A stretch of 64,000 bases of DNA from NCBI GenBank assembly GCA_030141605.1, contig JAQGDQ010000494.1:1-64000 (forward strand). The letters are read 5' to 3'. The notes beneath the pieces are model-generated. The model had not been told where the DNA came from. It saw nothing but the letters and a program-made list of their open reading frames with translations, and ran no database searches. The number at the start of each line of letters is the position of its first letter. Position 1 is the stretch's first letter. This stretch comes from Tubiluchus corallicola (Eukaryota > Priapulida > Priapulimorpha > Priapulimorphida > Tubiluchidae). Shown here piece by piece: positions 20,504 to 47,100 of the stretch. A program made the translations under genes and the position numbers.

Positions 20504-23500
20504 CTAGAAAAAAACAATGCACTTGTGAACATAAACAAGAAACGTGAGAAGATGAACAAGAGCATGTGAACACGAACAAAAATTTGTGAATCTGAACAAA
20601 GACTTGTGGACATGAACAAGAATTTGTGAACACGAACAAACAGTAACTTCTGAACACGAATAAGAACTTTTGAACATGGACAAGAACTTGTGAACATGAA
20701 AAAGGAACATGTGAACATGAACAAGAACTTACGAATACGAAAAAGAACTTGTGAACATAAACAAGAACTTGCAAATGTGTGTGAAGGTGCTGAGAATGAC
20801 AAGTCTGTTAACAATGAACTGCTTCGCTTTTCAACAGTGTCACTATTACATGTAGCACAATTTAATCAATTATGGCACAATTTTCTACACATCAATTATG
20901 GCACAATTTTCTACACATCAATTATGGCAGAATTTGCTACACATCAATCATGGCACAATTTCCTACACATCAATATGGTGCAATTTCCTACACATGAATT
21001 ATGGCACAATTTTCTCCACATCAATTATGGCACAATTTCCTACACATCAATTACGGCACAATTTCCTACACATCAATTACGGCACAATTTCCTACACATC
21101 AATTACGGCAGAATTTCCTACACATCAATTATGTCACAATTTCCTACACATCAATTATGGCACAATTTTCTACACATCAATTATGGCACAATTTCCTACA
21201 CATCAATTATGGCAGAATTTCCTACACATCAGTTATGTCACAATTTCCTACACATCAATTATGTCACAATTTGCTACACATCAATTATGACACGATCCCT
21301 TACACATCAATTATGTCACAATTTCGTACAGACCAATTACCCATGGGGCAATGTTTTAATTTGGATGAATGTTCAAATTCAATGCGAACAAATTTTTTTA
21401 ATTCAAATTCAATTAAAATTATAGGCTTGCAACTTCGCAACTACTACATACATTCTTTATCATTAAAAGGTTTGAAACATCATGAGCACAATTTAGCTGT
21501 AATTTCTCTGCGCAATTTTCAAATAAATGATTAGTGTTTTTACTGCAGAATCAAGCAATGTGCATTATCTTTGTGAGAAACTGCCTTTTTTGAAGCAAAA
21601 CGGGACCCAACCTTAAAAGTGTAGGTCAAAACAATCTACTGTTTAAAATATTGAAAGGAAATATACTATTTTTTCATAAATGACTTACGAGAAAGAACTA
21701 CTAGCACACAAATATGATTTAGAGTTCACGCCACTAGTTGTTCGCTGTTACATGCATTTTGCCATTCACTAGTTAGAAATGCATTGAACAAAAAACAGGT
21801 ACTGTGCCTCTCAGTTCAGATGTTTTAGTTTGTGACAAACTGCACACTATACACATTCTACAGCTTGTGCGTGCACACAGCGATAAATTTGAAATTTGAA
21901 TGTTTATCTTAAAAATTGCCTAGTTTTAATACAACACACTGAATATCTTACAGTAGCACTGAACTTCAATTTTCGCTTTCGTAAACACATGCAACACGCT
22001 TAGGGAATATTTTTGCTGTTGAAAATGATGGTAATTTGTGATGTCATCACTAGTAGGCCTCGCCCGCCGTTATTTAAGTTTTTAATCTATTATTTAATTA
22101 TCAGAAACTTTTTTGCAGTATTAACTGTGTTAAAATGTTCACTTTTTAACGGACTTGAAAATGGGATAGTATATGAAAAATCATCCTGTCTTCGTTATCA
22201 TTATCTTCCTTTAATGATTCAAAAATTTAATCTAAAATCTTTTAAACTGAACCCGAATGCAATTTGGATTCGAAATCTTGAAATTTGGTTTGATTCTAGT
22301 TTGAAAATTAAAAATTTCATTCGATTCGAATTTCCTTTCCGGTTGAGAATAGCTCACCGTTAGCAAGCGCAGCTCAAAACACGCCAAGCGAAGCCAAAAA
22401 GAAAGTCAAATTTTTTTTACTAATTCCAGACAATGCAGAAAACCTAGTTGTTCAACTTTAGTAGCACGAACGAATCCACTTACCATTGACGGAGCCGACA
22501 ACGTGTTCCTGAGCGTAACCGCTCTTTACAAGTTCCTCTGCTACGTCCGCGTCGGTTTCCGCATCCACAAGCGACACTTCGTACTGATGCAAGCCAGCTT
22601 TCGTGTCGGAAATCTGAGATAAGCAAAAACAATTTACTTAGTAACGACAAAGACTGACACGTCTGCATAAAATTACCATCAAAATACGTTGTTACTAGCA
22701 ACAAGTAAAATAAACAAAAACTTGTTAGCATGTACTTCTATGCAGGTACACTCATATCTCGGTTTGCCGGACAAAAGTGGGGAGACGTCGGTCAAAATTT
22801 GTCCATATTTACCGATGCTAAGCAAATATAGTAGGCGCCGTGTATTAGACTCACGGTAATGTAGAATCAATTGCCTAATTGTCTCAAAAATGTTTAGTAC
22901 GGGCCGCTTCGATGCAAAAGTATATACAAACTGTTGGCAATTCACCCAAATAACTCTGCATAATTGACTCTATGTTTTTACTCTATAACTGATTCTGATT
23001 AAACCAGTAAACATGCTGACATACAAGCTACACACGTGTCGTAACACGCTGCTTGGTTACACTGACGTAATGATGTAAACAAAGTGACGGCCTGCCAACT
23101 AGCGGTCAGCTCGTGAAGCAACCGACGGTGTCCGTAAGTATGGGGGACTGTATTTTGTCCTGTATTTATAATAACTGTATAGAAAAGTATATAACCTCCC
23201 AGTATTATAGAAACCTTTGGCAATTGACTCAAATAACACCGCATAAGTGACTTTATATTACTGACTCTACAACTGACTCTGATTAAACCACTTAAATATG
23301 GTGACATACAAGCTACACATGTCTTGGTTACACTGACATAATGATGTAAACAAAGTGACGGTCCGCCAACTACCGGTCAGCATGGACTGTGTCAGTAGGT
23401 ATGCGGACTTTTTAATGGTCCAGATTTTGTCCGAATCTTCCGGGTCCGACAAACCAAAATTTTGAGTGTAGTCTGGTTTATTGCATTTTTAAATTATATG

Positions 23501-26500
23501 ACATTGTAAACAAAAGCTAGAAACAGAATGCATATCTAAACAATGTTTTTACTAAATGCATGATTTATTTTGCAACAAAATTTCGTCTATTCCAAATTTA
23601 AATTTTGAACGTTTAAATATTTGTGTGGCTTTTAAAACTAGCATACATGCTAAACGACTACACTGCACCAGCTCAATGGTAACAAAAATGAAATTTGTCT
23701 TAAACAGATAATTATAGATCGATTTATAGATAGACAGGCAGACACATAGGTCGATAGACATACAGATAGGTGGACTTACTATCAGAAACCCTCTATAAAC
23801 CATTATGGCATTATAATGAGACACATTAGACATTTTGTTTTGCTAAAAATTTGTGCATTAAGCAAGGTTGGTATTATTTGGTATTAAGAGCATTAAGTGG
23901 CATTATAGGGAGGGCAAGGGGAGGGGGGGGTTACAACAAGGTTTAAAATGCTTTAAAAAGCATTAGTCTACAACACCCTTTACTATATGCCAACAGATGG
24001 CAACACAAACTGTGCATGCCATTAGAGCAGTAAAGTGTAAATAACATCACTACTGCCACCTATTAAATTTAATAAGAGCAAAATCCAATTAGACGCACCC
24101 TCTGAATAGTTGCCCTGAGTAATTTTCCCTGCACTAGTTCTTCAAACCGGTGTTGAAGTTTCTCTTCCTGATCGCCAGGCGGCGCAGTAATACCAGCTAA
24201 ACTACACTGGAAAGCCTGCATGGAATAAAAGACATCAAAATCAGTAGTGAAAATAACTTTTTACCTTGGTGGGTGGATCATGGGGTGAGCGGGGATAGTT
24301 TCAGTTATTTTTTGTAAAGTACTAAGTCCTTCGTATGTGCTTATTAGTAATACTACAGCGTTCCCTTTTCCAAGCAGGGTTACCGTAGCAGCATCTTCTC
24401 TGCAGCATCGTCTCCTCTTTATACAAAGAGGTGTCTCCTTTTCCCATTGCTACTTTTAAAAATAAACCAAACACATTTCTTTTTGAACAAATATAACGCA
24501 TTTTAGTAAAACATTAATGTAATCATGAATAAAACCAAACTCTTTCTTCTAACTTCCTATATATTTCTAATGAATAGTTCCTATGATTTCTGCAACCTGT
24601 ATGGAACTTGCATTTACCTGTACAGAACTTGCATTTACCTGTACGGTACTTGCATTCACCTGTACGGAACTTGCATTCACCTGTATGGAACTTGCATTTA
24701 CCTGTACAGAACTTGCATTTACCTGTACGGAACTTGCATTCACCTGTACAGAACTTGCATTTATCTGTACAGCACTTGCATTTAGCAGTATGGAAATTGC
24801 ATTTACCTGTACAGAACTTGCATTTACCTGTACGGAACTTGCGTTTACCCGTACAGAACTTGCATTTACCTGTACAGCACTTGCATTTACCTGTACAGAA
24901 CTTGCATTTATCTGTACAGCACTTGCATTTAGCTGTACGGAACTTGCGTTTACCCGTACAGAACTTGCATTTACCTGTACAGCACTTGCATTTAGCTGTA
25001 CTGAACTTGCATTTATCTGTACAGCAGTTGTATTTACCTGTACAGAACTTGCATTTATCTGTACAGCACTTGCATTTACCTGTACAGAACTTGCATTTAT
25101 CTGTACAGCAGTTGTATTTACCTGTACAGCAGTTGTATTTACCTGTACGGAACTAGCGGAAAAGTCTGCCTGTGGTTTCAACAGTCTTGACTTGTGTACT
25201 CTGGCTGTCGTGCCGTAGTCGACGAAGCGGACATCTGCATCTTCGTCTGACACGTCAGTTATAACACTTCTGTACCTGTAATGAGCGAATACGGTTGTTC
25301 AGGGTACGCGGATATTTACAAAAACCTCCACAATAAATAAATGTGAAAGGACAAGAAACTTCAGTACATAAACTAAAAAATAATGGCAATGATGCGCTTA
25401 ATAAACTTGATAAAATCCTAAACAAAAAATATTTTTGCTTACTAATAGCCTAAATTCTTGCAGTTCAAACTTGACCATTCATGGTAAGTACGTGACAACT
25501 GACAACAAACTGTGTGAGCGACAGTACTTTCTCTACCTGGGCTCAGACGTGTGCGCATGGCCGCATGCACACAAAAGCCAAACACCGCATTGTTGGGCTG
25601 TGAAGCAAAAAGTACTGCCATCACGAGCTCTGACTCCGTACAAGTATAAAGAAAGAACTAAAGAAAAAAGACTTATGATATTGAATATAATCGATAATAT
25701 TGACAGAAGGTAGGAGGTGCTGCAGTTCCACAATATCCATACATGAGCCGCCACTAGCATGGTTACAAAGTCACACCCCCGCAGGATACAAATATTACCA
25801 GAATACAGGATACCGAAATTGTAACCAGGACAGATGAGAAATAAGAGAGAATTTTGGCGACCCATCGCAGGCATTAAAAGCAATTTTAATCTGATCAAAG
25901 TGCAGAGGTGAGGGAGCAAACTAGATTAACTGATACAAGGTGTATACATAACCAAGCATGGCTAGCAGACGGATAATTGTCAATGGTCTAATGTCTCGTC
26001 ATCGTACCGGATTTGTGACTGAAAATTAACCCAGTTCTCGGGCTTTAAACACCTTTGTATGTTAAAAAGACTCAGACGCTAAATGTTATATTCAGATTGC
26101 AAACTGCTGAACACTGTTAGAAAAAAAGTGCCAAGTCATCTCTCAGTAATTGCTTAAACAATAGTAAGTTAAAAGTGTACTACCTATAATGTCTTATCAA
26201 TAGAGGTCACTAAAAATGCATAACATACTACCGCTAGCACTGTTGACAGTGGTGTCGCCATCTAGTAAGATTAAACTGAAATAACGGGAGCTAGCTTATC
26301 TTTAAAAATTTAAATCATCAATATTTCTTAAAAGCCTTTAAACTTACGACACCCACCAGTCGTTACTCTCGCCGTACGGTGCAACGCAGGACCTCCCGAC
26401 AGACGGATCTTCCAGGATGTCGCCGCCCTTGCTGCAATAATCCTGCAACTGTTCTTCCAGCACCGGATTGCAGCCTCGTGACGAAGCCAGCTGACACCAG

Positions 26501-29500
26501 AACTCCTGGCATGTTTGCAGCGATGCACCGGGCACATAGACGTCCAGGGTCGTTCTGACCTCAAACTTTGGAATTATGTAAGCTGTAAAAAAGGATAAGT
26601 TGAACAACATGAGTCAGACGTGTGCCTGTGATGTACAGTAAACTAGGTATAACTCAAACACCTTGGGGAAAATTTGTTCAAGCTATGCGAAAGTACGAGT
26701 TAGACAATGTTCATAAGCAAACAACAATTTTTAAGAATAATCAAAAATAAAATGACTGTCCACCTATTGTAGTCTGAGTAGCATGGTTCATAGAATTAAT
26801 AATAATAATATTGTGATTTACATTAAACCACGTTCATTAAGCCATGTTGTGTTCAGCATTCTACTAAGGTAATACAAGAAATCTTTAGCATTTTGGCTGA
26901 AGTCGTAATGTGGTACACACTTTCGCAAAGGAGTTCTCGCTTGGGAAATTCAAGACAAGAGGGGTAATTTCAATCAGATTGTTAAGAATTCTACTAAGAA
27001 TTCGGTTCGAGTTATTCGTGTTAGCGAATGTTTGATAAAGGAAAAAAAGGACTGACTTTCCATATATTAGGCCATTTTCAAGTCTGATAAAAAGTATACA
27101 TTCTAACACCAGCAATACTGCAAAAACATTTCTGATAATTAAATAATAGATTAAAGACTTAATTAATGGCGAGCGAGCCCAACTATTGATGGCATCACAA
27201 CCTAACTTCATTTTCAACAGCAAAAATATTCCACTAGCGTGTTGCACGTGCTTGCAAAACCGAAAATTAAAGTGCAGTACTACTGTAACATATTCAGTGT
27301 GTTGTACTAAAACTAGGCAAGTTTTAAGATAAAAACTCAAATTTCAAGTTTACCACTGTGCTCACGCATGAGCTGTGGAACGTGTGCTGTTAGTCACAAC
27401 CAACATATCTGAAGCGAGAGGTACAGCACCTGTTTTTTGTGTAATGCATTTCCGAAATGCAGGCACTAGTGCCCGTCTAACTAGCGAATAGCGAAATGCA
27501 TGTAACAGCGAAGAACTAGTGGCGCGAACGTGAAATAGTGTTTGTGTGGTAATAATTCTTTCATGTAAGTCATTTTTTAAAAAAAATAGTATGTTTCCTT
27601 TCGATATTTTAAAGAGAATGTTTTGGTCTGCAGTTTAACATTTGGTCCAGTTTTGCTTTAAAGGGAAAAACTAGAGAAAAAATCCTTCCACAAGATCTCT
27701 TTGAGGTACGCAAGAATTCGAGTTATACCAGTTTGTGTTATACGTACTTTACTGTACTTCATTACTGTTGTGGAGTTTATTCTGGAATATTCCATAGTAT
27801 AGTAGAACAATCGTCTTACCTTGTAGAACAGGGGTGTGCAAATTATCTGACTAGCCGGGCCGCATTAAACTTTCCTGCAATTCCTCCGGGCCACAGGCAG
27901 TTTGATCAAGGAGCCAAGTACAGAAAGGCCTAATAACGATTTTTTGCATCCGATCTGTGCACATAATTACTACTACACTCAAGAAACTATTTTAGAAGTT
28001 ATTAAAATTTATATTACAAACCATATATTTCTACTTTCAGGACAAATAGTGGTAATTTCATTACAATGCATATTAGTAATGTGTATCACACAGTCTGTGT
28101 AGTACAGTGACATTAAGCTACAACCGTCTTGTAAGGGTTAATGGCATCCGATCTAGTAGAAAAAACTACCTGCACTATCTTTGGGATCGTGGCACGAACT
28201 TCAGCTGGACACACTCAATTAATCGCCCGGGCCGCACTTTCATTAGGTTGACAAATCTCTTCGCGGGCAGCCCAAATTCTCTCGGCGGGCTGCCGTGGCC
28301 CTCGGGCCGCAATTTGCACACCCCTGTTGTAGAAGTTTCGAGAATTTTCTATTTCTAGATTGTTCTTTTGCACTGATATATAAGTTGGACCTGGCCACTG
28401 GAGTTTATTCTCTTGTATCCTCGTATTCTCAGATTCTCAGGTACGTTTCACGTTTCCAGATTATCACATTTACTGTAAACATTTCGCATTCCTTCATACT
28501 TTTGTGTTGTAGAATTCTCGTATAATAAACTAGTTTAATTTGACAATGTGTTTTCTGGTTTTCTCTACAAGCCTTCGAGAGAAACAAAACACAACAATTA
28601 CATTTTCTCATTATCTGCTCAGCACTGCCAACTGCTACAATAAAGATCAGGGACATCTGTCAGTGTCTGTCCTCTATCAGTAACGACCTATATTCAGCTC
28701 CTGCCACAACCATCAAGTATAGCAGCTGGTTCCATTATGGAGTTTACACGAGAGCAACGCAGGTTGAATCTGACCACAAATCAATTAGCCAATAACAATG
28801 GCGGCATTCGTGCACTGCTAGGTGTCTCTTGTGTCGGCTGACAATACTGTCGATCTGTTGGATTATGTCCCCGGTGTGAGAGTAGCATGCAGTAGACAAT
28901 AACGCAGAATATTTTTGCATTAGTATTTAAGTCTGCTCGTATTCAGCACTACGAATTGGTTACAAAAACATGGTGAATAAACGGAGATGCCTTTGCGACA
29001 TTACTTCATTTTTATTGCTAGTGAACACTAGGGGTGAGCATTCTCTACCAGAAAGCGAATTCGAATCGAACCGAATTTGTGACTTTCGAATTCGAATCGA
29101 ACCGAACTTCAGTGTTTCGAATTCGAATTGAGCTTGAACGACTTTCGAACAAGTTTTCGAACCACCATTAAAAATTAGTCTTACAAAGATCATGCATAAT
29201 ACTAGATTTTGTTCTGCAATAAAACAAATAGTACCGTATTTTCCCGTGTATAAGAGACCCTTGTGTATAAGAGACCCCTTCAATTTTTAGGCAAAAATTC
29301 TGGAAAAAAGTTTTTTCAGACGGACATTTTTAGAGGGTAGAGTACAACTTTTTTCAACTCAGTGCGGTACTGAAAACAAAATAAAACCAGTTAATGTGTT
29401 GTAGAAAAAGAGTTCTGGTATATACTAAAGTGCGTACCTGCAAACCTGTAACAGGAAAAGAGAAAACGAAGAGATAATGCCTGTGTCACGATGCTTGTAT

Positions 29501-30754
29501 TGCTTACAACCACTTCATAGTCGAACGCGACACGCAAAACAGTTGTAGAGCACTTATTTCTTTAAAATCATTAGTGTCACAATTTATGCATCTTATTGAA
29601 AAGACTTACTCCCATGTATAAGAGACCCCCTATTTTTAAAGTGAAAATTCTGAGCAAAAAAGGGTCTCTTATACACGGGAAAATACGGTAATTTCTTTAA
29701 AATTGTGCGCAGGATTCACAGCTAAATTATGCTAATTGCATGATGTTTCAATCGTTTTAATGATCAGGAACATACGTGATTGAAGTGCTGAATTATTCGA
29801 ATCTATAGTTTTGGACATGAATGGAGTTCGAACTAAAAAAACTCGTTCGAATCGAATTCGAACGTTCGATGCTCACCCCTAGTGAACACAAAATAACAAA
29901 AACAAAACATCACAACTGTCACCCTGAGCAGCCGACATTACTTCCACCTCTATAACAACTAACTAACAAGGTCAAAATCCAGTTACAGAACACAGGTGAG
30001 AAGCCAACCTGGCGCTTAAATTAAAATCGGCAGGCGGGTCATAACAAATTGGCATTGGGAAACTAAGACATTCGTCGGTTTGAGGAATGTTATAAATATT
30101 TGGTCTTTTGGCACCAAAGTTTGACAACAGAGTATTAACGCTCATTGCTACCATTTTCTGCCCATATTTATTTGTGGTCTCATATCTATATCGGACATAC
30201 ATTGAGCTGACAATCACAGAAAACAATAACTTGGTGATCTAAAGTGTTTTGGCAGTTTTGTAGCATTTTTACCCCATTGTGCATTAGGAATTTACCCTAA
30301 TGAACATTCCACTTGCCTAACGTAGCGTGCAGCTAATTTGTTTGACACGTGGGCACAATAGGACAAGCCTGTGCTGAAGTCGACTAGTCGTGATCGTTGT
30401 TAATAAGGTGTTAATAAGGTTAATAAGCTATTTTGCACAATAGCGAACAATGCGGGTTGCATACGAATTCAGCATACGTGGCCTTCGTGTAAATTCCATA
30501 TATGGTTAAGTGTGGAATCGCAACTTCTGAAGAACTGTATAAAAAGTAAAAGGATGAGAATATGTGTTAAAATACCAATAATTGATTCAGAGATTGAATG
30601 TTGTTGTTGTTTATCACAGGTGCTTGTTTGTTCGTCCTCTGCAGTGTCCACTTCTTCCAACCCGTCTCCCAGGGCTTCCCGATCCTGCTGTAAAAAATGA
30701 AATGCACGGAATTCTTACATAGTTGTTGTCACCTTAGCGGAGAGAAAAAGAGAA

Positions 30755-30851
<97 letters not shown>

Positions 30852-33800
30852 AGAGAGTTAGACTGAGAGAGAGAGAGCTAATTTCGTCAATATTTAACTG
30901 GATTGTTCCATCAAGCTGCCACTATTGACAATTCTGCATGATTCAGTAGCCAAAACTAAAAACTAACCTCGCCAATTTGTTTGGGAGATTTCACTTCTTC
31001 TGATTGCACGCTCTCTGATGCAACAAGTTCCTCGATCACATCGTCTCCCCTGCCATCAGCTAAACCACTGGGGCGTTCCTTTTCGAACGGCGTACCGTCA
31101 GAGATCAGAGATTGTTCAGATACGTCGCTGTGAGAATGAGGATCGATAAGGGAGGCATCTGCGTAATCGTCGTCGACATTTGGAGAAGACTGGGAAGACG
31201 GAATGCCACTATCACAAGCTGCCTGCTGAAAAGACGTCTTTCCATAATCATCTCCGTCATTGTCATCGTCATCCTTCAGGTCATTGTCAGCGCCTTGGCT
31301 AGATGGACTGGCCCCTGAACCATCTGGTGGAGAACGATTAGAACAAGAGTATGGCATTTGAAATGCACTAGCATTTGCTATTTCGGAGCAGACAGACACG
31401 TCTAGAGCAGGTTCCAGCCTCATGTTTGATTCCACACAGGTGACCAAGTCGGCCAGGTCTTCTTCATGTTGTGATATCATGCCCTGGATGTCTTCCGGCT
31501 GTGCAAAGTCGGAATTTCCCTCCTCGACTTCTGCATCTTTTGCCTCGATGACTTGTCGATCTTCTGGCTGTGTCGAAGTGGCCACATCTGATTCAGGAGG
31601 TGAAATACTCGCATCTTTAAAGAGTTCTTCACTTGGCCGTAGTTGATGCGAGTCTTCCGGGGGTGAATCTGGTGGGGAAGAAGCCACATCTTCATCATTC
31701 AGATTACCCAAATCAGTTGTAAGTAACTCCCCCCTTCTATCGTCTTTCCTGTCTTCTTCGGTTTCTGAACTAATATCTGCTTCAGCATCTTGACTGGCAG
31801 TCTCTAACTCAGCTGCTACAGCTTCTTCAAGATTCTGACAGCTTTCTGTGGCTTCATCATCTTCGACAGCTGCATCAACGACAACTCGAGTTTCAGTTTT
31901 TGAACGCAAGTCGGCACCCGACATCTCAGAGTCTAAGTGTTTACCGACTTCTATATCCACTGCAACTTCTTGCTTTAAACCTGATGGCAACAAACCCAAT
32001 TCGTCTTCCGTTGAAAATACCCGTTCATCTTCAGTTGGAAGTTCCAAGTCATCTTCGGCTGGAGATGCTGCATCTTCTTCCTCTGGAGATGCCGCATCAT
32101 CTTTGGTTGGAGATGCCCTGTCGTCTTCAGTTGGTGATGCCTGGTCGTGCTGTATATTTTGTCTGTCTTCAGGCTGACAGTCTGGAGCATATTCATCATA
32201 TGCTTCTATGTCACCCATTGTATCTGGCAGTCGTTTAACCTGGGCAATGCTTTCACCTTCAACTTCGTCTTCGTCTGCCAACAGGTCATCTGGAAGAGGA
32301 ACTTCAAGAGGAAATACTTCGTTCACGATTCGTTGTGCGCCCTCTCGTCCCGCATCCCGCTCGGATTCTGTAAGCTGAGCCTGCTCGTCAGAATCGGCCA
32401 GCACCTCAAAACTTGCAACGACGTTGGTAAGCAGCCGAATCTGGGCTCTTATATCAGAAAGGCAACTGGCCATTTCAGCCTCAGCTTGCTCCTCCTCGTC
32501 CCGCTGTTGGTGCGATTCTCTAGGCTCAAAATTTACCTTTTCCTCAACACTGGACACATCGCCAGCTGCACTCAGATCAACTGGACTGGGTGTAGTTCCC
32601 TCAGCTTCCTGCAAAGATGTCACAGTAATGTCCTTATCACTTTCCACCACAGCGTCATCGGCAGAAGAAGCTCTGGCAGAAAGACCCCTCTCTGACTCCG
32701 CTAACTGCTCATCTTGGTTTGAGTCGTCTAGCGACTCAGGTGAATCGACTTCGGATTTCCTAATTGCCTCTGCGAGCTCTTGATCGCCAAAAGACTCTTT
32801 CAACATATGCCGATAAACATCTGGGCCTTCCACATCTTCTGAATAGCGGTCGTCATCGTAGTCAGCTTGCACTTCAGCATTTTCTAAATCTTCGGCTAGA
32901 TCTTCATCGTCGAGCAGCTTGTCAAAAGCAGATCCTTTCAACTCGTCCTCCACCTCGTTAGTGGAAAACTGATCTTCGGTATCTAGTTGCTGTATCATCT
33001 CTTTCAACTCTCGATCCAACTCTTCATCGCTAAGCACTTCCTTAAAATCTGACTCATCCAAATCGGCTTCCACCACGTTACTGGGAAGCTGGTCTTCCAT
33101 CTCCGGTACACTGGGCTCAGCAACCACGTCTTCCTCAAATCGATGTTTATCTACGAGCATATCCTTCACGTTTTCTTCAGTGGTTTCGTCCTCCTTTTCC
33201 TGATAGTCCAAGGTCTGGTCTACTTCTGTCTTCTCTTCTGTAGCGGAAACCTCGGAATCGTACTGGGCATTCTCGTCACCTTCTTCGGCGCTGTCAAACT
33301 CCAATTCGTCGTCAGACTTGCTTTCATTTGGCGTTTCTTTGTCGTTCAGTTCCTGTAAGGTATCGGCAAATTCCTCCTCCGTACTCGCCACCGATTCGTT
33401 CATATTCCCTTCGTTCTCATCAACAATATTATCGTCTCCAAATTCAGCATCTGCTGGCGGCAAATCTGTTTTGACGCCCAAATTCAAAACGTCAGTTGCT
33501 GACTTTTGCTCGAAGCCAATCGCTAGTCCTTCTTTTACCATGATATTTTCCACAGACTCTGAACTGCCTTCGGTGATATCTACAACCGGCACTATTGCGT
33601 CGCATACTACATTTATTACAAGTGCCTTTTCTGCCGTCAGTTCTTCAAACCTTTCAATCGCGGAAGCTGTCCAGCTGTCACCAGGCGGAGCAATGTTTGC
33701 TCTACACCGAATAGCTAGTGCCTGCTCTTTGAGCAAATTATCTGGAATGCCTACAATGTTCTCCGTGTTCACCCGCTCGCTGTTTCCGTAATCCACAAAC

Positions 33801-36800
33801 TGAACGAGCACCCTGTCAGCAATCTTGGTAACTTCAGCTCTGTACCACGTCTGATACTCGGTTGATTTCGCCAGGCACGCAGCGCCGATAGTGGGAGAAA
33901 CACAAGGCCTCGACTTAGAACAGTACACCTCGACTTGTCGACTCAGATCTCCTAGTAAGTCCTCCTGCCTGGAAAGGTGAATCCAGAAACAGCCAGGATC
34001 TAAAGAGTATGACACGAAACAGTCTTCTTCACCGGAAAGCTGCTGGTATTTAAACACGCGAGAGGAGGTGACTTCCTCATCAAAAGCGGAAGTGTCTCCT
34101 ACAGCTGTAACTGGTTCAACGTGTTTGGCTTCTTCTGCTGTAACCGGTTCAACATTGGATACAGCTTCATCGATGAGGTTCAGGCTTTCGTCTTTCAACA
34201 AAGCTTCGTTAACGTTCACTTCACCGCCGTCCGAAACATCAAATAGCGTAACGCACAACCTACAATAAATCAATAATTGAGGTTTTTCAAGTGCTATAAA
34301 AGAAATTGAAACAGGTGAAGGTAGTCCCAAGATAATGCCCAAAAAATTTCTCTTTAGTTTTAAACATAACAATGGGAGATTTTTTTCTATAGTACGATTA
34401 TTTTACACATCACCAGACGGCGCCACCAGACAAGTTACAAAATGAACATTAATACTTATTTGTAGCTTATTTGAAGACAAACATGAAACAAAATTAGAAG
34501 TTTCTAATAATGGCATTTCAGCCCCCTTCTTTCAGGCAGTTCTAAATGATCACTTGGTTTGGTCACCTAGCCACACAAACTGAAGACTTTGAATTATTTT
34601 CCACCAATAAATACAGTCAATAGACATAGCTAACACTACTATTTGAAAACTTTTTTATTTTTTAAATTCATTCCATATCGAAATATAACAAGGCGTATAT
34701 TATCTGCTTATAACGAGTTTTAGGGGATGTCCAAAATTTTCTTGCTACAACGTTATAAACCTCGTTATAAGCAGATTAGACTGTAACAGCATTTATTAAT
34801 TACATACCGATGTGGACTGGATAAACCACACATAGCAAAACATGGAAAATAAACAATTACACCTACATTTACAAGTGATCTATCCGAAAATTTTGTAGCA
34901 CAGCTATATATAATGACGCTGGTACATTTCTAGAATATTTCTAATGCAACTAACAAAAACATTGTCACTTTCACAAGTTATAATTATAGGTGATATAATA
35001 TAAAGCTCACAGGTTCGAACCCAGGCTTGTGCTGATTTATTACATTTTTTTCTTCCTTTCCATCAAGATTAATACAGAAATTTTAGTTAAACAGAAATAT
35101 AAAAATAATAAATGTTGTTTAACTCCTTCAGGACAGTAAGCGTTTGCTGCATTTGCATGAGTTCGTGAAAAACTGCTCCAGCTAAACAGCGATTACATTA
35201 TATTTGATCATTTTTATAGGTTTGTACTCCTCACACAATGGATTTTCATGCAAAATTATATGTGAAATACATTTCCTTACCTTAGAAAATTTAAAATCCA
35301 TTTTTGAATCGAAAAAATTGAAAAAAGCTTTCAGTAACTGCAGTGTTTGCACTGTAACAATGTACAGTATCACTTGCGTGAAATCAGCTAATGCAGAAAA
35401 TTTCAACTATTCAGACACAACACACTAATAAACTTTGGCATCAAGTTAACTCTATATTTAAGGAGAAATTCCTGTTAAAAGATGAACTGACCTTAATATG
35501 TCTGATCGGTTGGTTTTTCCTGGAATAGTAGTAGAACATTGTACAGCTTGGGCTGTAGCAAGCAGGCAATCAAAAAATAGTGTGTACGATCACGCAAGTA
35601 TACACCAGATCACGCTACTGAATAGGCTAAGTTGGAGTGCCTGAAGAGGGCGTGTTTTGCTAATTTTATCCAATTAAATCACTTAGAAATGTTTAAACAA
35701 ATAGCATGATTGGATAGCCAAGATTCTCCTGGATAGAACAGTACCTAATTTGTAATCATTTAGTTATGTATGTGCTCATACAGTAGCAGAAAAGTCTTAG
35801 GTCTTATAAGACGTATTTTGGATGATGCGGCCCTGAAGGAATTAATTCCATCATTAACCAACAATCTTGCAAACAATGAATCCCACCTATCATCATCCTT
35901 TTCATCGACCAGGACCAGTAGGAGGTTTTTGCTGGTGAGAGTTTTAAAAGCGTCTGTTGATTCCGGGTTCACTACGCTTATACCGGACAAACTGCATTGG
36001 ACTGCTTGTGGCGCCAGCTCAGCGTACTCTGGTAGCAGCGTCCGCAGCTGTGTGATATGTACAATGTCAACCGTGCCTAAAATAAGGCAACGAGAATTCA
36101 ATGTTTTTATTACAGGCGCTTAAAAACATTTGTAGTTAAAGCACCACAACTTTATTAAAACTTTTAGTTTACATAGTCAAAAAATTATGCTAAACGTTTC
36201 GACAGAGCTACTGCTGTCATCATCAGTGGTAAATTTTTACAAACATACGACCAGTTTATATGGGCAGAGCCTACAGTATAGAATATTATGCACTAATTAC
36301 GTACTTAACAGAAGACCAGTAGAAAAGAAATAGATACAGTAAATTAAGCACTAATTATGTACTTAACAGAAGACCAGTAGAAAAAAATTGATATAGTAAA
36401 TTGTCACTAATTATGTACTGATCAAATATGTAGACTAAATATGATTAAGCAGACTAGTAGAAAAGAAATTGATACAGTAACAAATAGCTAAGTGTCTGAG
36501 AATCAAGTTCAAATCCAGCATTAATGACCATTTTTGTGCCTCTGGCCACAACCTGATTTTATAAAAATCAACATTGTGATCAGAGCTACAAATAACTAGG
36601 CTCATTAATAAAAGAAAGTTTATCTATGTGCCCTAATAAGCCTTCTCTTAATGTGCAAAGCAGTTCAATTTCTTTAGCCTGCATCCAAGAATGGCGAATG
36701 CAAAAATTACAAGGCAGAGTAAGAGTAAACTACTAATCTGCCAGTCCCAGAAAGAATAAGGAGTGATCCCTGAGAGCACATTTCGGGAAAAGGGATAGAA

Positions 36801-38008
36801 AAGGCTTAAAGAAAAAAAATAAGGAATAAGAATGACTCACCTATATCAACGAAGAACACTTCAACTTTGCTAGGAGAAAGCCGCTTTAAGACACGACCTC
36901 TGTGCCACAAGCCATCCTCTTCATGTTTTATAGCGCAACAGGTCCCTGTGTTATAATCACAATTGATTCACTCAATAAGAAAACCATAAAAAGGTTAAAG
37001 CAAAAGAACACATTTCACACACAAAGCTTAAAAATTCTTGCATCACTTACATGCTGTCTTATTGGATACTGAGCTCTTAATAACAGTAACGTTTTTCAGA
37101 TTGTCTGAACATTAGTTCAGAATAAAGAATGCTCTAAACTATTGAAAACTACAATAGCTTTTTTTAAATCAAAGCTTAGATGAAATAATAATTACGTCGG
37201 ATACTCAAATTTCGTTAAACTTTCAAAGCTGGCTCAGTGAATCTACTAAGATTGGCGGCGACGCTTTTTTGTCACGTTCACGTGTTCGACAAATAGAAGG
37301 CGGTACCGTGATAACCACGATCATGACCTGCAGTGTTAGTTTCATGACATCATACGATGTAAAGTCCATTTTTCGTGACATCACGTGTTTAAGCAGTACT
37401 GTAACACTTATGCAAATGTGCTTGACGTGCAAGGGAAGATGCCTACTAAGCAATAGCTGTGTTCGGTTGCCGTTAATTAACTTTCTAAGCTAATTATTTT
37501 ATAGGCAAGAAAATGTTTATTTTGGACAGTAGATTAAAATGAGATTAAGTCTAAGCAATCGTCCAGTCTTCCTTTAAATAACTAAGCATTTTCTTTTCCA
37601 ATTACTTAAAGTCTCTCGAACAGGTAAGCATAAAGCTAAGTAATATAACTTTACGTGGGAAGCTTTCTGAAACATAAACTACGATTTCCTTTTGTTCTTT
37701 AAGTATTGCACTGACTTGGCAACTACTTATACCAAACACAACGTCAAACCAGCATCCACAGCAGTCATAAAGTAACTTTTGGCAACACACTAGCAAAAGT
37801 TATAACAATCTTACCTGTGTTTGCATTTCCAAGTCTGAGCTGTTTTTCGGTCAAACTGTCATAGTATTCGTTCAGGGCTTGCATAACTGTATCCAACTTG
37901 GGAGAAAATTCACACATCTGGATCCAAAACTTTGAAACATCTGAAATTGCAGCATTGTAAGAACAGCAGCAGCAACAACAGCAACTGCAGCAGCAGCAGC
38001 AACAACAA

Positions 38009-38040
<32 letters not shown>

Positions 38041-38073
38041 ACAGCAATGACAACGACACAACAACAACAACAA

Positions 38074-38105
<32 letters not shown>

Positions 38106-41100
38106 ACGACACAACAATGACGACAACAACAAGAACAATAACAACGACAACAACAACAAAAGCATTGCTAACAAGATAATGAATATTGTGCAAGGTGAAC
38201 AATATATTGATTTTTTTTATTTTTAGCTCAGCTCTCATTGTTATTTTGTAAGACTTTAAAGCACAAGAAAGCACTCTTCATAATAAAGCTTAAAAGATTC
38301 CTCCTGAAATTTTATATCACCTCATTGCTGTTCATACAGGGATTGCATTCGCAGTAACACTGCATAAAACTTGAAAATTTAAATTCCCGCAATGACCGTC
38401 AGGCACAGCCATTTTCAGGTAAGTCGTTTGAGTTACGCTAGTCGCTTGTCAGTACCACTTTTGAATCAATATGGGAATTCAATACATACCTTCAATATGG
38501 GAAATCACCACGTCTGCAAAATCGCCGACATTTACATCTAAGAAGATGATGGGGTAAGCGGCAACGGGAGCAGATTTTGGCAGCGATGACGATCGCGTTG
38601 TGCTAGATTCACTACCTGACCTGTCGCTGCCACCTGTTGTTGGATTTGCGAACTTTTGAGAGATCAGTTCGTGTGCGACGTTTTTACCTTTCACTGTGTC
38701 AATGTCCACAAGGTAAGTGTCTAAACAAGAAATAATAAATAAATAAACAAATAAATCCTTAAATAAACAATTATATTAACTGCTACTTCTTAAATGTTTC
38801 GCATTCCGGAAAAAAATTTTCCTAACACAAAACAACACAGTAATACAATTAACTGGTAACAAAACTATTTGAATTGAGTTCACTCACAGTAATAACTCTG
38901 TATGGGATTCAATAAAAATGAGAAATACAAAAGAACAGAAGATCAATATGCCCTTAAGTCTCAGAAAGTAATGTTTATTTTCTCCGATAGTTTTCATCCC
39001 TCAGTAAAGACCCTCGTGGTAAAATCAGAAAATCTGAAAAGAACTGCTGCACTAGTGCTGCCATCTTCAGGGACTGCAAGGGCCTCAGAGATCAATCCAA
39101 TGGCATCTTGCATTGAGAGAAACTCTCTTACAGCCCATGAGTGATTCAGAGCACCTTGTTGAAAAACCACATTGTTATAAGCCAAGGAACAGTGTGGTCC
39201 ATACAGGTGCTCTGTATTGCCCATGAACTTCAGTTTCTAACGTTATTTCCTCATTTCTAAAGTTACAATCGTCGCCATAGCAACAGAGTTTCAATTAAAA
39301 ATAAATAAAAAGAAAATTGTCAAAGGCCCCTTTTGGTTGATGTAACGGCTTGCTGAGATTGAAGAAAAATTAAGAAAATTAGAAATCAAAGTGTGCAGGG
39401 ACTTTTGAGACACCCTGTACTTTCCTAAAGAAAAAAAATGTCTGCATTTGAAACTGGATTCGAAATTGGATAAATTCATTAAAACTGCTTACTCTCAAAC
39501 TTGGCGTAGAAAGTGCACACGGATTCATCTCCGAACAGATCCGCGAGGAACGAGTGAGTGGGCGTGGCCCAACGGTGACCGGCCGGTTTCACGCCCTTCA
39601 GGCGACAGCTAATAGCCTGTCGTGGCAACAGCAAGAACTCGGTCTTAATCTGAAAATGTCAACATAATCACACAGAACGTCTGCACCAAGTTGAGCACTG
39701 CTGAATCCGCTCAGTAACTGCTCAGGCAGTTAAATTCTGTTTATTTTTTTATAAATAATTACCACACAACACTAAACTCATGAATATTGTCATTTATACT
39801 TTGTTTTTGTTTTGATAATTTGTAGAAGATTCCCAAGTATCGCATATCATTGCTTAAGTGCTTTTTTCTGTCATTGTAAAAGTTATAACATTGTTAAATG
39901 AAACGTTCATTTAACATAATACATATATACATATATACATAAAATTATATGTTAATTGTCTCACTTTTTGTTTAAAAACTACTAACAAATAAGATTAAGC
40001 CTAGTAGAAATATATCTGTCACTCGCATCATATTAAAAAAAAACATCCCACACCAGCTACGCCACACGACACCACCCACGCGACGCCACCGGCACCTCGC
40101 CACAAAACAACAGCCAGCAGCAATAAAAAATGTTTTGCACAATGTTGAAACTGAGTGAGAGATACAAAACACAATCACTGATGATCAATAATGCAGGAAC
40201 ATTCTACATAATCTTTGCTTTCTGCTCCCGACACGATGACAATAAATCAATTATGCGCAAGCATTCCACGTGGTATTTGCACATTTCTCTCAAAATGAGG
40301 GCAATAACCTGGCTGTTATCAGACGCCTATTTACAATTGATAAGGAGTCCAAATTATGTTATTCAAATAGACAAAGCTGTCAGTTTATACTGTCTAACGT
40401 GAAAACAAGTAAATATATAAGCAGACGTTAATACCATCACCGGCTGCTCTGTTCAATAATAAATATTTCCATAAATTGTAAAACACATAGACTAATTTCA
40501 AGTGTAAAATTTTTTTATGTGAAGAATGTATAATGCATACTTTTTTGTTCATTGCAATGCAGAAGTGCATTTTCTATGTTTTGAAGTGTAATAAAGGAAA
40601 TCTTAAAGGAAGACAGGATGATTTTTCATATACTACCCCATTTTCAAGTCCCACTAAAAGTATACATTTTAAGACAATTAATACTGCAAAGTGTTTCTGG
40701 TAATTAAATAATAGATTAAAAATTTAATTAACAACAGGCGAGCCCAACTATTGATGACATCACAAACTAACATAATTTTCAACAACGAAAATATTCTATG
40801 AGCGTGTTGCACGTGCTTGCGAAAGCGATAATTAAAGTTCAGTGCTACTGTAAGATATTCAATGTGTTGTACTAAAACTAGGCAAGTTTTAAGATAAAAA
40901 TTCAAATTTCAAATTTCCCGATGTGCTCACGCGTGAGCTGTCGAACATGCGTAGTTCGTCACAAACTAACACATCTGAACTGAGAGGTACAGCATCTGTT
41001 TTTTGTACAATGCAAGTAGGAAATGCAGGCACTAGTACCCGTCTAACTAGCGAATGGTGAAATGCATGTAACAGCGAAGAACTAGTGGCGCAAACGCAAA

Positions 41101-44100
41101 ATTGTGTTTGTGTGGTAATAATTCTTTCACGTAAGTCATTTTTGAAAAAGTAGTATGTTGCCTTTCAATATTTTAAAGAGTAGATTGTGTTGACCTAGAA
41201 TTTAAGATTTGGTCCGGTTTTTCTTTAAATCTTATAGCAATCAGCTTATCGGTACCTAATTGCACGGGATGCTGACGGGTTACTAGCTGAATCGGAAGCT
41301 GGGAAACAAATTTCTGGAAAATTTGTAGTTATGTGCATCAATTTCCACCAGGGAACGTTTCCTTAATGAGACTGTTTCATCTACTAAATCAACATGGACA
41401 TACATTGTCTCAGACAATGACACAAACTTTCCAGTTAACTTGTACCTATGCAATAATTAGAAATTACCTGTTTTAGTTCGCGAAGCGTTCTCGTATCTGT
41501 GTTACCATAATCCACAAATAACACTTGAATGGCGTCGCCACTGATGCTGATGATCTAAATAGTAAAAAAAGACGTTAATTCAGTCAGACAGTACATATGT
41601 TACCTTAAGCAAACCAGGTAATTAACTAATGAAGAACTTACCTGTGCTCCACATCAGATTCTGTATATATAAAATAAAGCATAATTGTACGTTAGCTAAA
41701 GGTAGGATGTTAAAGGATAAAGATTTGGTGATATGATACTTTTTTCCAAAGACGGGACATCGATAATTTGTTCATCAGACGACACAATACGATAAACTAT
41801 TTTGACCAATAAATACAATACTGGACGTGTGGTTAGTTATCGTGCAAAGAGTCTCGGTGTATGGCAACACCGTATTTTTATAAGCTGTTTACTTATAAAT
41901 AACCTTATAAACAATTCTTTTTATCTTCTTTTTGCATAACGAAGAGTGAACATTTCTATAAGACAGACAGACATGTCTCTAAGACAGAAAGAGAAGCAGC
42001 GATATGCACCAATAATGCGATACAGTAAGTATATTTTTAGAATATTATCAATTTCTAGAATAAAACAAATATGGCCGACAATAAAATACTTCTGATTCTA
42101 CCTAATCGCCCGAGTAATATGTTTTTATCACGCAGTCGGCAGGGTCATATACTTACATCACTCAGTCATATAAAAGCATATTTTTTATTTAATATGTAAA
42201 ACGCAATAATAATTATAACATCGTTCTTTCGGGGAACACAAGACGCCGCCATGTTTTTCCAAGGCTAACTCTTGGTCAGGGTTTCCATTTTGTATGATGC
42301 TCATTGTATTGGAGGCTAAAAAGTAGAGAATTTTCTGCCAAATTGGTGTATTGAAGCCCGAGTAGTGTTGCCGCTTATACCATAATTATCAGAACATACA
42401 CATTCATGATACAAAAAAGAGGCTATACAATAATCGATAATTACACGATAATTTAGTAATGCAAAACTAAAAAAACAAAGCATGAAAAAATGTGCATTGA
42501 AAAAATTTAAAACATTACTGCTAACCAGTGGGAAATAAACAGCTTTGATTTTAACTGATTTTAAATAGTCCACGAATCAGCTTTAGACATTCACAAAAGC
42601 TTTAAATTCTTCCTCCCTCCCTACTGACTCCCTCCTTTTGAGCTCATCAGGTTAAGACAGAAACATTTTTTTGTGGCTGGCCTACGTGTAGTTACATGTA
42701 AACTATACACAAGTTGTAGGTCAAAATTGTAAATAATTACTACTGTATAAAGCTACTTGCTTGAACCACTTGTGATAAAAGTCAGATGACCTGATTTAGA
42801 AAAACAATGCAATAAGATGATCATGTACAAGACTAAATAATGGTAGATGCCCACACTGTATCTCGACACTAGGCGGAGGAGATAGACAAGTCAAGCGACC
42901 CAAAGGCCATGTGTAGAGGAGTAAACCTTCCAAATCACGAGTGGAGTCCCAAAGGTGGACCAGTGCAGCATGCTCACTGACCGAGGCAGCTCCTGCAGCC
43001 AACCTGGTGCCAAACGTATCGCTCCGCTTTCCTTTGGACTACACCAGGGAGGAAGAGAGGGGGTTCCTGTTGTCTGGGCAACTCAGGATCTCTATACACC
43101 TTGCCCAGGCGTGCGCCCTGGAGAGGCCACTCCAGTGGTTCAAGGATCGCACTGCTCAGCCACAGTTGACGCTGCAGCTCCATCAATGTGATCAATAACT
43201 GACTCTCTTGGCGCACACTCCATTGTCTTCCGAGACAGAAGGATGCCAACAACAACAAATAATGGTAATGGCAACAGTTTGCCCACAAAAATGCTTTTGT
43301 TAATTTAGAATAATAATGATAGATAATAATGGTACACAGGAATGAGAAGAAATGGGCAAAATCCTGATACACTAAACAAGTTCACTACCTTTGAAATGTA
43401 AAAACTGCAAATTCACTGCTTTCGTGAGCCAGATGACCCTCGTGGTTCACAAAAAATGTCTAGCAAGTTAACAATTACAACAGCTTACTTGTCAGCAAGT
43501 AATAATACTATTAAATGATAGAATTTTTTACCAATTATTTAGTGATTGTTAAAATTTTAGCAATTGTTAAAAGTCAGCAATAAGTCAGTTATTCAATCAG
43601 TCAGTAAATCACCCAAACTTGTATGCAAAAACACACCATAGGTAATTAAATAATAACGAGCTTACCTGTGCTCTGTACCAGGCTCCGTCTTCGCTGTACT
43701 TGGCAACACATGGCATATTCACCTGCGGCGATTTCAGCGAGTCGGCAGACGATTTGGCTATAGAGGCGTAGTAAGTTTGCAAAGCTAACTTCATCTCTTC
43801 TAACTTGGCTTCATCCCGTGCGAGTTGACAATAGAAGTGGTCCGGGTTGACAACCCAGGAAATGAAGACCCGCTCTTTTTGTCCGCTATTAAAAAGAAGC
43901 ACTTTACAAATCAGCTTAGAGCGAGACCCTACCATATCAATTTCACGAAATGACCGAAACTAGATTAACTGTGGCATGAAAATGAAGTGATTTTAAAATA
44001 TGCGTTACAAGGTGGGTGCATAGCTGAGTGAACAGACGGGTGAATCATTTTGATATTCATTCTTGGCAGTTCATTTGCCATAATGATTCTGTCTGTTTAC

Positions 44101-47100
44101 CCAATCAATAACAACCAATATTCAATATTCAAAGAATCCAAGTTACATATGTGCATCTATCTTTACGAAGAAAGGGAATATTTCAACAAAGTCACATTTG
44201 TAGAGGACAGATTACCATGCTTTATGTGAAAAATAACATTTCTTACCTGTTAATTACAGGTTCTTCGTAGCCCCCTACAACACTGGACCGTGGCGATAGT
44301 GACCTCGACCGATCCAATGAAGATTCCAAGTCATTAGTCGACAGAGCGGCACCCGCCTTGACCATTGCACTTGCGATGTTCTCATTGTTTGTTTCACTCT
44401 CCAGTTCCACCAGGAAGGTGCCATCGGCAGTGGTGGACACTCGCTTGGCTGCCACGTCCGAAAACATGACCATATTTTCAAACTGCTTAATGTCGTCATC
44501 AGACCAGTCGCCGCGTTTCGGCTTGACACCTGCGAGGCTACACTTCAGTGCCTGCTTCGGCAAGAGGAGAAGATCCGATTGGATAGCCTTGATTTCTCTA
44601 CTGTCGACAGTTTCGACGTTCCCATAGTCGACAAACTGTACCTTGACACTCTTTCCCTCAACTGCGATAATTTCGGCCCGGTACCAGTGGTTGTCCTCGC
44701 TGTACCGAGCACAACACGGCATTCCAATGCTGGCATTAGTTATTTCTTCTTCCCTAAATGACAGCTGATTGTAGCGAGATTCTAATTTGGTCATAATCTC
44801 GTCAAGCTTTCTGGTTTCGCTTGAAAGTTGGCAGTAGAATTCCGAAGGAGTCAATAGGTATTCTACAGCCACATTGACAAAGCCAGCACCCATGGGCTGA
44901 GGTACATACTTACGCATTCCTGGTTCCTTCTTCATGGGTTGTTCATCCCAGCTGTTCTCATTCTGATTCACAGCCACGTCTCGACTCAGGAAACTTGAAG
45001 CACCGCCATCTTGCCACGGCAGCTTCTTCGATTTTGTGCCGGCGAAGCTAGAAGCAGCATTTTGAACAGTAAACAATGATGATGATGAAGATGCTGCTCC
45101 CCAAGTCTTGCCGCTCTCAGACTGATCGTCCCAGCCATCTTCATGCGCTTCGCCGACGTGGTTTAACTTAGGTATTGAAAAGTCGGTAAAATTTGGTTTG
45201 GGTTTCCAACTGTCCTGCTTTGGAATGGCACCGAGGCTAGCTGGAGGCAGAGACGATATCATATCCCTGCACTTCTGGCTGACATTGTTGCCCTTTACAT
45301 CTGTCAATTCCATCTTCCAACGATTAGATTCCCAAGATAGACATTTGGCCGTAAAGCTTTTGTTTAACACAAGTTTTTGCACTTTCTCAATTTGTTCAGG
45401 CTGTAAGGTCACATGTTCCAAACCGCTAAGGATTCCAACGACACACTGCTCCGGCAATGTAAAAAACTCGTTACTGATGGCCTTGATCATCCACTTCTTA
45501 ACGAATTCAGTGTTGCCGTAATCGACAAACATTACCTCCACATCACCAGACTTTTTAATACCAACAACCTTTGTGCGATACCACAGATTATCCGCGCTGA
45601 ATTTGCTTACACAAGGTGAACCCAACTTAATATCTGATATTTTAGTTTCAGCACCACCTCTGTTTGTGCAATATGACTGCAGTTCTCGCATTAAATTGAT
45701 CAAGGCGTTATTAGTTGCAGTCATTTGGCAAAAAATCTCATCGGGTCCAACCATATGCGTTACAACCACTTCAAAAGGTTTATTAGTTTCCACTGGTGCA
45801 GGTATATATGAATCTCGCAAAACTTGATTGCTTGCCATGTCACCAGAACTACCACTTGGTGGCATCGAGTTGACCGACACGACATACTTGTTGTTTTCAG
45901 CTTTCGAGAGCACTTTTATCTCGGCTGTCGTATCAGCCATCAGTGTTTCAAACTCTTGATGAGTAAGCCCAGGTGGCATAGAAGACAGCTCACATTCAAC
46001 AGCCTGCTGCGGATAGTCCAGAAACATAGAATTTAGACACATCACAGCATTTTTGAACACACACTCCGTATTCCCATAATCAATGAAACGAATCTGTACT
46101 TGAGTATTATCAACGGATACAACTTTTCCCCTGTACCATTGGTTATCCACAGAAAACTTCACGGCACAGTAGTCATCTATGTGATTGTCTCCATCGGCAA
46201 AAAGCTTTTGCTCAATCGCTTTAGTATAATAATTGTTAAGTTTCTGTAAAAACGTCTCCAGCTCATCTTGACTGAAACGAGTTGGTTGTCCATAGAACTT
46301 TCCCGCAGATTCTATAGCCGATATAAACATGTGTTCTGTCGCATTCAGTGTCGGTTGTGGTATAAGAGCTTTAGGTTTTTCGAAGGTTTCAGCCGTTTTA
46401 GCTCCGAGTAGTTGATTGATGTTTTTGCCCGATATTTTCTCCGTCAGTTCAACAACAGCCATATCATTTGAGCAACGCACAACTCTCATACTAAAAGTGC
46501 ATTCTTCATATTTCTTTAAAATCTTTTCAATGTTGGTGTCGCCAGCAATACCGTGCAAAGAGCAGCGGATGGCCTGCTTTGGGACAGACAGGAATTCCGG
46601 CAGTAACACTTTGATTCGAGATTGGGGCAAGATTTCCCAGTTTCCGTAATCGACATACCGGACCTGGGCCTGGTATCCAGAGATGCTCATAACTTCTGCC
46701 CGATACCAGATTTCGTCTTCCGTGAACTGGCCACAGCACACATCACCCGGGCTGAGATTCTTGGCAAGAGGAACAGGCTTATCTGTGTAGAAATAGTCAA
46801 TTTTTGTCATCAAATCATCCAAGGTATTAATGTCTTTGACGATTTGACAGTAAAAACAGCTGTGCTCGATAGAACTGACTGTCACATCAGCCATGAAGCC
46901 GGGTGAGAGGATACAAGCCGCATAACACTTTACACCACCAGCAGAAGCCTGCGGCGGAATTCCGCTACTTTCGGGTGACTGCAAAGACGATCTGCCGGGG
47001 GCTAATCCGAGCTTCCAACTGATGGAAAGTTCCGAGTTGTTGTTAAAAAGCTCGACGGTGACTTTATCGGCAGCCGTAGTCTTCACAACCATTTTCAGCA

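Follow-up and report, generated by a model that had tools for sequence, protein, structure and literature searches.

Near-identical splice donors in a tandem repeat at the end of a Tudor exon of the priapulid Tubiluchus corallicola

One exon of a multi-Tudor gene in the priapulid Tubiluchus corallicola is followed by a tandem repeat that carries one splice donor after another in a single reading frame. The question raised by this locus is whether such a row sets the length of a protein by donor choice, guards the donor of the exon, or is a by-product of the growth of a repeat at an exon end. It is considered here for a stretch of 64,000 nucleotides of contig JAQGDQ010000494.1 (assembly GCA_030141605.1; this whole stretch is called the window, and positions are counted from its first letter) and for related repeats in the remainder of the assembly.

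The host gene and the place of the array

The host gene was modelled from profile, alignment and phase evidence as 14 exons of consistent phase on the minus strand, running from 48163 to 22484 (E1-E14, 22484..48163); these exons alone encode 3000 aa without the array and 3182 aa with it. Ten Tudor domains were aligned in the model, six of them in its large exon, and the acidic linker coded by E9 holds a 24-bp in-frame repeat at 32001-32148. The first part of Tudor 10 is assigned by homology to E11 (26357..26582, minus strand), its core lies in E12 (25143..25275, minus strand), which ends CAG|GTAAAT at 25143, and its SN-like half starts in E13 (24099..24215, minus strand) with AFQCSLAGI. With PF00567 at 1e-14 (Pfam) and the TDRKH structure 6b57 matched at 1.5e-10 over query residues 15-204, a Tudor core and an SN-like half are found in one domain, the arrangement of an extended Tudor. 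The neighbouring exons proposed in the first-pass annotation hold in this phase-consistent model, except that E11, which had been ended at 26348, more likely ends at 26357. Two in-frame donors lie 9 nt apart there, 26357 CTG|GTGGGT yielding WYR and 26348 GTC|GTAAGT yielding WWVSYR, and WYR is the form of other Tudors.

The placement of E12 is supported by its phases and by the way it continues into E13. Splicing at the first donor joins the two exons without a gap against DFLSLPFQ|AIECSLARI of TDRKH (6b57). The point of insertion does separate the core of the domain from its SN-like half, as had been proposed. No inserted residue was found at the array point in any of 104 other Tudor domains aligned, of which 9 belong to the same gene and 95 to 11 homologues that include several close relatives, four being near-copies of one another; the row of Tudor 10 itself was entered array-free and hence carries no weight. 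Because the array-free join is gapless and none of the 104 domains has an insertion, the first donor is probably the ancestral one. The 11 homologues come from a protein database search in which, among candidates of about 1750-5568 aa, those sharing the most words were scored; the three best, from Elysia marginata, Argopecten irradians and Tegillarca granosa, are from molluscs. Candidates of 150-476 and 467-1487 aa gave no match at all (the 467-1487 aa search, like that of about 1750-5568 aa, scored the top word-sharing candidates). A protein of the same species was absent from the candidates in all three length ranges, which says little because the species may be missing from the database.

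Directly after exon 25275-25143 follow 26 tandem 21-bp units, from 25142 down to 24597 on the minus strand (24597..25142), without a single indel; TRF reports a period of 21, 26.7 copies and 0% indels at 24595-25154. The 27 units initially counted at the exon end agree with this, the 27th being the exon end itself (25163-25143), and the full units after the exon number 26. The consensus unit, GTAAATGCAAGTTCTGTACAG, translates as VNASSVQ. An error of assembly in the copy number or the presence of the array is highly improbable: 21-bp repeats do assemble badly from short reads, but the array has 12 distinct units among its 26, an assembly search places it at one locus, and arrays built in the same way are found at other genes.

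The composition of the unit is revealing of its source. The 15 nt at the exon end (25143..25157, minus strand; GCTAGTTCCGTACAG, coding ASSVQ) match the consensus at 13 of 15 positions in a local alignment and the TCC-type units at 14 of 15. The right flank shows no homology to the unit: of 500 random base permutations of 24520-24596, a fraction of 0.908 scored as high. Since homology to the unit is seen in the exon tail and is missing from the right flank, the unit is read as exon tail plus intron head, and each of the 26 units as 6 nt of intron head followed by a copy of the exon tail. Should the first donor be used, as the gene model and the gapless array-free join indicate, the intron would span 24216..25142 (minus strand, 927 nt), and its initial 546 nt would be the array. 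A candidate for a related array elsewhere, on contig C308, was rejected; it matched at 71%, but its 23-bp unit is unrelated. A palindrome, CTGTACAG, lies at the donor in many units of the Tudor array and of two arrays on other contigs, L036 (C161) and L039 (C217), and lengthens to TTACCTGTACAGGTAA in L039.

Splice signals and coding potential of the units

The exon junction included, GT is kept at 19 of the 27 junctions and 18 are good donors. More specifically, 13 read CAG|GTAAAT, 3 CAG|GTGAAT, 2 CGG|GTAAAC and 1, the last junction, CAG|GTTGCA; in the other 8 the GT is replaced by AT (5) or CT (3). The first-pass annotation was therefore right that many donors are equivalent (18 good, 13 of them identical) and that 19 of 27 junctions keep the dinucleotide, while the motif it gave for those 19 (CAG or CGG before GTAAAT or GTAAAC) fits only 15. 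Donors are spaced 21 nt apart, or 42 or 63 nt where a GT has been lost. The pairing of CAG|GTAAAT with U1, at -8.3 kcal/mol, falls in the middle of the range spanned by the gene model's 14 donors (-1.5 to -11.0), and it is equalled outside the array by only 4 of 1060 GTs tested in the introns of the gene; the row of donors exceeds chance. Copy one gains no advantage from its 9-mer, because this is identical in the 13 CAG|GTAAAT junctions, whose strength the first donor does not exceed.

One function for such a row would be a decoy or buffer, in which the extra donors guard against loss of the first or gather U1 snRNP. The concentration of 18 good donors within 567 nt, compared with 4 of 1060 other intronic GTs, and the genome-wide enrichment of donor motifs in arrays both point in that direction. 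However, 8 of the 26 units have lost the +1 G, which ranks third in variability after unit positions 13 and 15 (9 each); selection for donors would not be expected to leave such a pattern. A later donor, moreover, still inserts at least 7 residues. The buffering of donor loss that had been suggested is accordingly left unsupported by the variable +1 G, and we regard this function as very unlikely. Still less probable, to the point of being scarcely credible, is that each AG|GT serves as acceptor and donor together, a ratchet point from which the intron is removed stepwise. The junctions do read TTCTGTACAG|GTAAAT, and 10 of 26 units reach or exceed the score of the gene's weakest real acceptor (2.0-2.7 against 1.7). 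The remaining 16 fall below every real acceptor (1.7-11.1), the units have 7-9 pyrimidines in 17 positions against 8-14 in real acceptors, and steps of 21 nt would be too short for introns.

A more direct role would be that of a length-tunable exon, whose downstream donors are substantially used and produce isoforms of Tudor 10 with 7n residues added to the loop that precedes the SN-like half. The units are in phase and stop-free, as first noted. The frame is open over all of them and closes nine codons past the array with VAEIIGTIH*, in the post-array sequence (24567..24596, minus strand) that is without unit homology in the shuffle test. The suggestion that this open state speaks for translation did not survive comparison with chance. 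Of 63 single-nucleotide changes that the unit can undergo, only 1 creates a stop, and 14 random changes leave no stop in 49-68% of trials. A neutral simulation of duplication and mutation, using a simple model that starts from the stop-free consensus, gave 402 stop-free arrays among 600, and 194 among the 297 in which 11-17 distinct variants were present. Across the array, four of the six reading frames stay open, and 10 of the 14 other arrays hand-picked in the window have 0% indels, 7 of them having periods that are not multiples of three. An open, indel-free frame was consequently rejected as coding evidence, since stop mutations are rare, stop-free arrays are expected in simulations, other frames are open and indel-free arrays occur out of frame.

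The variation among units is similarly close to chance in one respect and less so in another. Four of the 14 distinct variants are synonymous, against 3.6-4.2 expected (P 0.53-0.70), so the excess that use as an exon would be expected to leave is absent; the variants are distributed over codon positions 1, 2 and 3 as 6, 4 and 4. The residue changes are more conservative than random, with P from 0.018 to 0.056 (transitions weighted 2, 4 or 8 to 1; uncorrected for three frames), which weakly favours translation. Structure prediction adds nothing to this. AlphaFold 2 folded the exon plus array as a beta-solenoid with a mean pLDDT of 82.3 (64-89 for the first units and 92-98 for later ones, by block), but the antisense frame of the array was also predicted to be all beta, with a mean pLDDT of 87.0 and a best block of 93. 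Because the antisense control matches it, the predicted solenoid is uninformative and was set aside as coding evidence; confident AlphaFold 2 folds of perfect repeats are a reported artefact (PMC11795689).

The tunable exon thus has on its side the phase, the 13 identical donors, the conservative changes and the confident fold, and against it the chance expectation for open frames, the synonymous count, the antisense control, the absence of any insertion in 104 other domains and, with little weight, the missing same-species protein. Together with the arrays at other genes, taken up below, this balance makes substantial use of the downstream donors unlikely. Low-level use of later donors may nevertheless occur.

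Donor-spanning repeats elsewhere in the genome

The mere presence of a repeat on an exon border is unsurprising in this window. Fifteen arrays of period 20 or more cover 13.4% of it (hand-picked from 55 TRF rows, with a GTG-rich stretch at 201-892 and some two-copy rows left out), and of the 27 exon borders of the Tudor model 3.62 would be expected to fall in them at random, against 1 observed. Another of the repeats in the window, a 92-bp array of 12 copies (53222-54319), overlaps the end of a minus-strand open frame at 55028-54237. TAC|GTATGT recurs in several of its units together with an acceptor-like TTCTTTTGTTAACAG, and because the unit carries a stop the array may be a last exon instead.

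Counts of donor motifs over the 343.5 Mb assembly, for which the reversed pattern was the only control, set the Tudor array in a wider context. Triples of CAGGTRART separated by 9-39 nt were counted at 779 or more places, compared with at least 64 for the reversed pattern, a 12-fold difference, while the single motif differs only 2-fold (18465 against 9057); triples of CAGGTGAGT number at least 155, against at least 8 reversed. These counts cover donor motifs, the acceptor-side counterpart being TTTTNCAGG in triples, and their totals are not numbers of arrays because one long array is counted many times. The best 100 of the 779 places fall on 12 contigs, and extrapolation from these 12 suggests that such arrays are of the order of 100 in the genome. 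The loci examined were every contig among the best 100 of the 779 and the best 100 of the 155, a non-random set. Removal of copies (the C555 pair and C467/C1517) reduced its 21 stretches to 19 loci; on C357, where two arrays are present, one was examined.

At 7 of these 19 other loci, open frames and splice signals indicate that the array starts 7-36 nt before an exon ends, so that the donor lies within the unit; if a weaker case, C217, is included, the sister arrays at exon ends have about 12 to 56 copies. Homology backs the exon at four loci: a PDCL3-like gene in which homology runs across the junction (C5, L034; 1.8e-20; first donor spacing 33 nt), an axonemal dynein (C173, L037; 1.4e-10; 26 nt), a C2H2 finger (C975, L052; 2.8e-17; 23 nt) and a Maestro HEAT-like gene whose match is below the Pfam cut-off (C338, L044; 7.7e-5; 39 nt). 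For C467/C1517 (L046/L054; 32 nt), C555 (L047/L048; 46 nt) and C1357 (L053; 41 nt) the exon is drawn from open frame and splice signals alone. The same signals define the exon at C217 (L039; 40 nt), the weakest case, with which the array shares only ACAG; this array lies at or just after the exon donor, and TRF starts it 26 nt inside the intron. Pfam returned nothing convincing for the exons of C217, C467, C555 and C1357, and a PDB search nothing convincing for C1357 and nothing for the Maestro peptide. The C467 array and its C1517 copy measure 1684 and 1747 bp, with flanks 94-97% identical where compared, and may be an allele or a duplicate of one another.

The other loci are of two kinds. 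Two contigs, C195 (L038) and C939 (L051), hold paralogous Kunitz-like exons (the match for the C195 piece, at 0.0051 in Pfam, is under its cut-off) with arrays that TRF starts about 25 nt inside the intron; their unit is of a 15-bp GTTTGGTACAGGT type, in 16 and 73 copies. At 9 of the 19 loci (C82, C161, C232, C236, C265, C324, C357, C597 and C679) no clear exon was found by eye.

The spacing of the first two donors keeps the reading frame in 3 of 9 arrays, the Tudor array with its 21 nt included, which is the level expected by chance; reading frame is therefore not what keeps the arrays. Use of the second donor would shift the frame or meet a stop in 7 of the 8 sister arrays, a count that weighs against the tunable exon, and read-through of the PDCL3-like array meets TAA at once. 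Only 2 of the 9, the Tudor array and that of the Maestro HEAT-like gene, combine an in-frame spacing with the absence of stops. In the Maestro array 204 aa can be read from the exon before a stop is met, and this array provides the tunable exon with a second possible example. On the donor strand it occupies 1855-2317 of L044, with a 39-bp unit (VSRHQENPFPITQ), about 12 copies and 11 CAG|GT junctions. It is likely, on this comparison, that the Tudor array belongs to a genomic class of donor-spanning minisatellites whose unit length ignores the reading frame.

Origin and significance of the array

Arrays that span a donor are already known as a kind, from ABCA7, from boundary repeats and from tandem alternative splice sites (TASS). 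Human ABCA7 has in intron 18 a VNTR with a 25-bp unit that begins at the exon 18 donor and 23.7 reference copies (PMC5954066). Retention of one unit is put there at 2 +/- 1%, the isoform being subject to decay, so that perhaps more is made than is seen; expansion of the VNTR raises skipping of the following exon. On that account both are tandem arrays at the donor of a coding exon, with GT heading the unit in ABCA7 and kept at 19 of 27 Tudor junctions, 18 of them strong. They differ in that 25 bp shifts the frame where 21 bp keeps it, and in that the ABCA7 VNTR is said to begin with the GT whereas the Tudor unit includes 15 nt of exon. In ABCA7 the next-unit donor is used at times; the Tudor array is known from sequence.

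Similar comparisons can be made with other systems. TASS are defined as donors of the same type no more than 30 nt apart, and about 99% of clustered sites sit in clusters of 2-5 (PMC8055015). The 21-nt spacing falls within that limit, but losses of GT widen some intervals to 42 or 63 nt, and the Tudor array amounts to several TASS clusters and not one, the longest with 8 GT junctions; the catalogued sites are, in addition, expressed ones. Boundary tandem repeats in human segmental-duplication genes alter exon/intron structure, often with alternative transcripts (PMC2812944), and represent copy-number differences between paralogues, whereas the Tudor array is long and at a single locus. Introns have also been gained through tandem duplication of a segment (PMC4974935). 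In the Tudor gene a segment with AG|GT would likewise have been duplicated, but an old intron has been lengthened and no new one is implied. The duplicated segment in the intron-gain study reportedly contains AGGT. Human coding sequence is reported to be under selection against tandem splice sites that keep the frame (PMC2279118). Passages on the intron repeats of earthworm metallothionein give no sign of donor-spanning units, and the MIR137 VNTR was rejected as a parallel because its two donors lie in the pre-miRNA, outside the repeat. Among the papers listed in a search of the open-licence literature, none described an in-frame donor array of such size or treated donor-spanning minisatellites as a genome-wide class.

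Taken with these precedents, the array appears to be a tolerated consequence of repeat growth and not a built-in control of protein length. We think it probable that it is a donor-spanning minisatellite of the ABCA7 kind, tolerated and perhaps with some in-frame leakage. A 21-bp segment, 15 nt of exon end and 6 nt of intron head, would have been duplicated in tandem into the intron until 26 copies were present, presumably by unequal exchange or slippage. Copy one would keep the exon end and its donor untouched, and the array would be tolerated because of this; its copy number could then drift upwards as long as the first donor remained in use. Predominant use of that donor is what the architecture, the homology and the ABCA7 precedent lead us to expect. 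Minor use of nearby copies would add 7n residues, in frame by chance, so that leakage at the Tudor gene would place 7 residues per unit where no other examined Tudor domain has an insertion.

The genome-wide excess of donors might mean more than passive tolerance. It is a tentative possibility, which we hold to be rather improbable, that splice donors are preferred birthplaces of minisatellites in this lineage, with some 10-50 near-identical donors at each of many genes, and that the in-frame minority, the Tudor and Maestro HEAT-like arrays, gives rise to length-variable protein insertions by donor choice. Identical donors at a set spacing offer a natural experiment on choice by the spliceosome in which position is the main variable, and the occurrence of one architecture both in and out of frame within a single genome offers an internal control for claims of coding repeats. 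If the birth of arrays does not favour donors, they would still be a caution against taking an open repeat for an exon; if it does, they would be a little-noticed source of variation in exon length.
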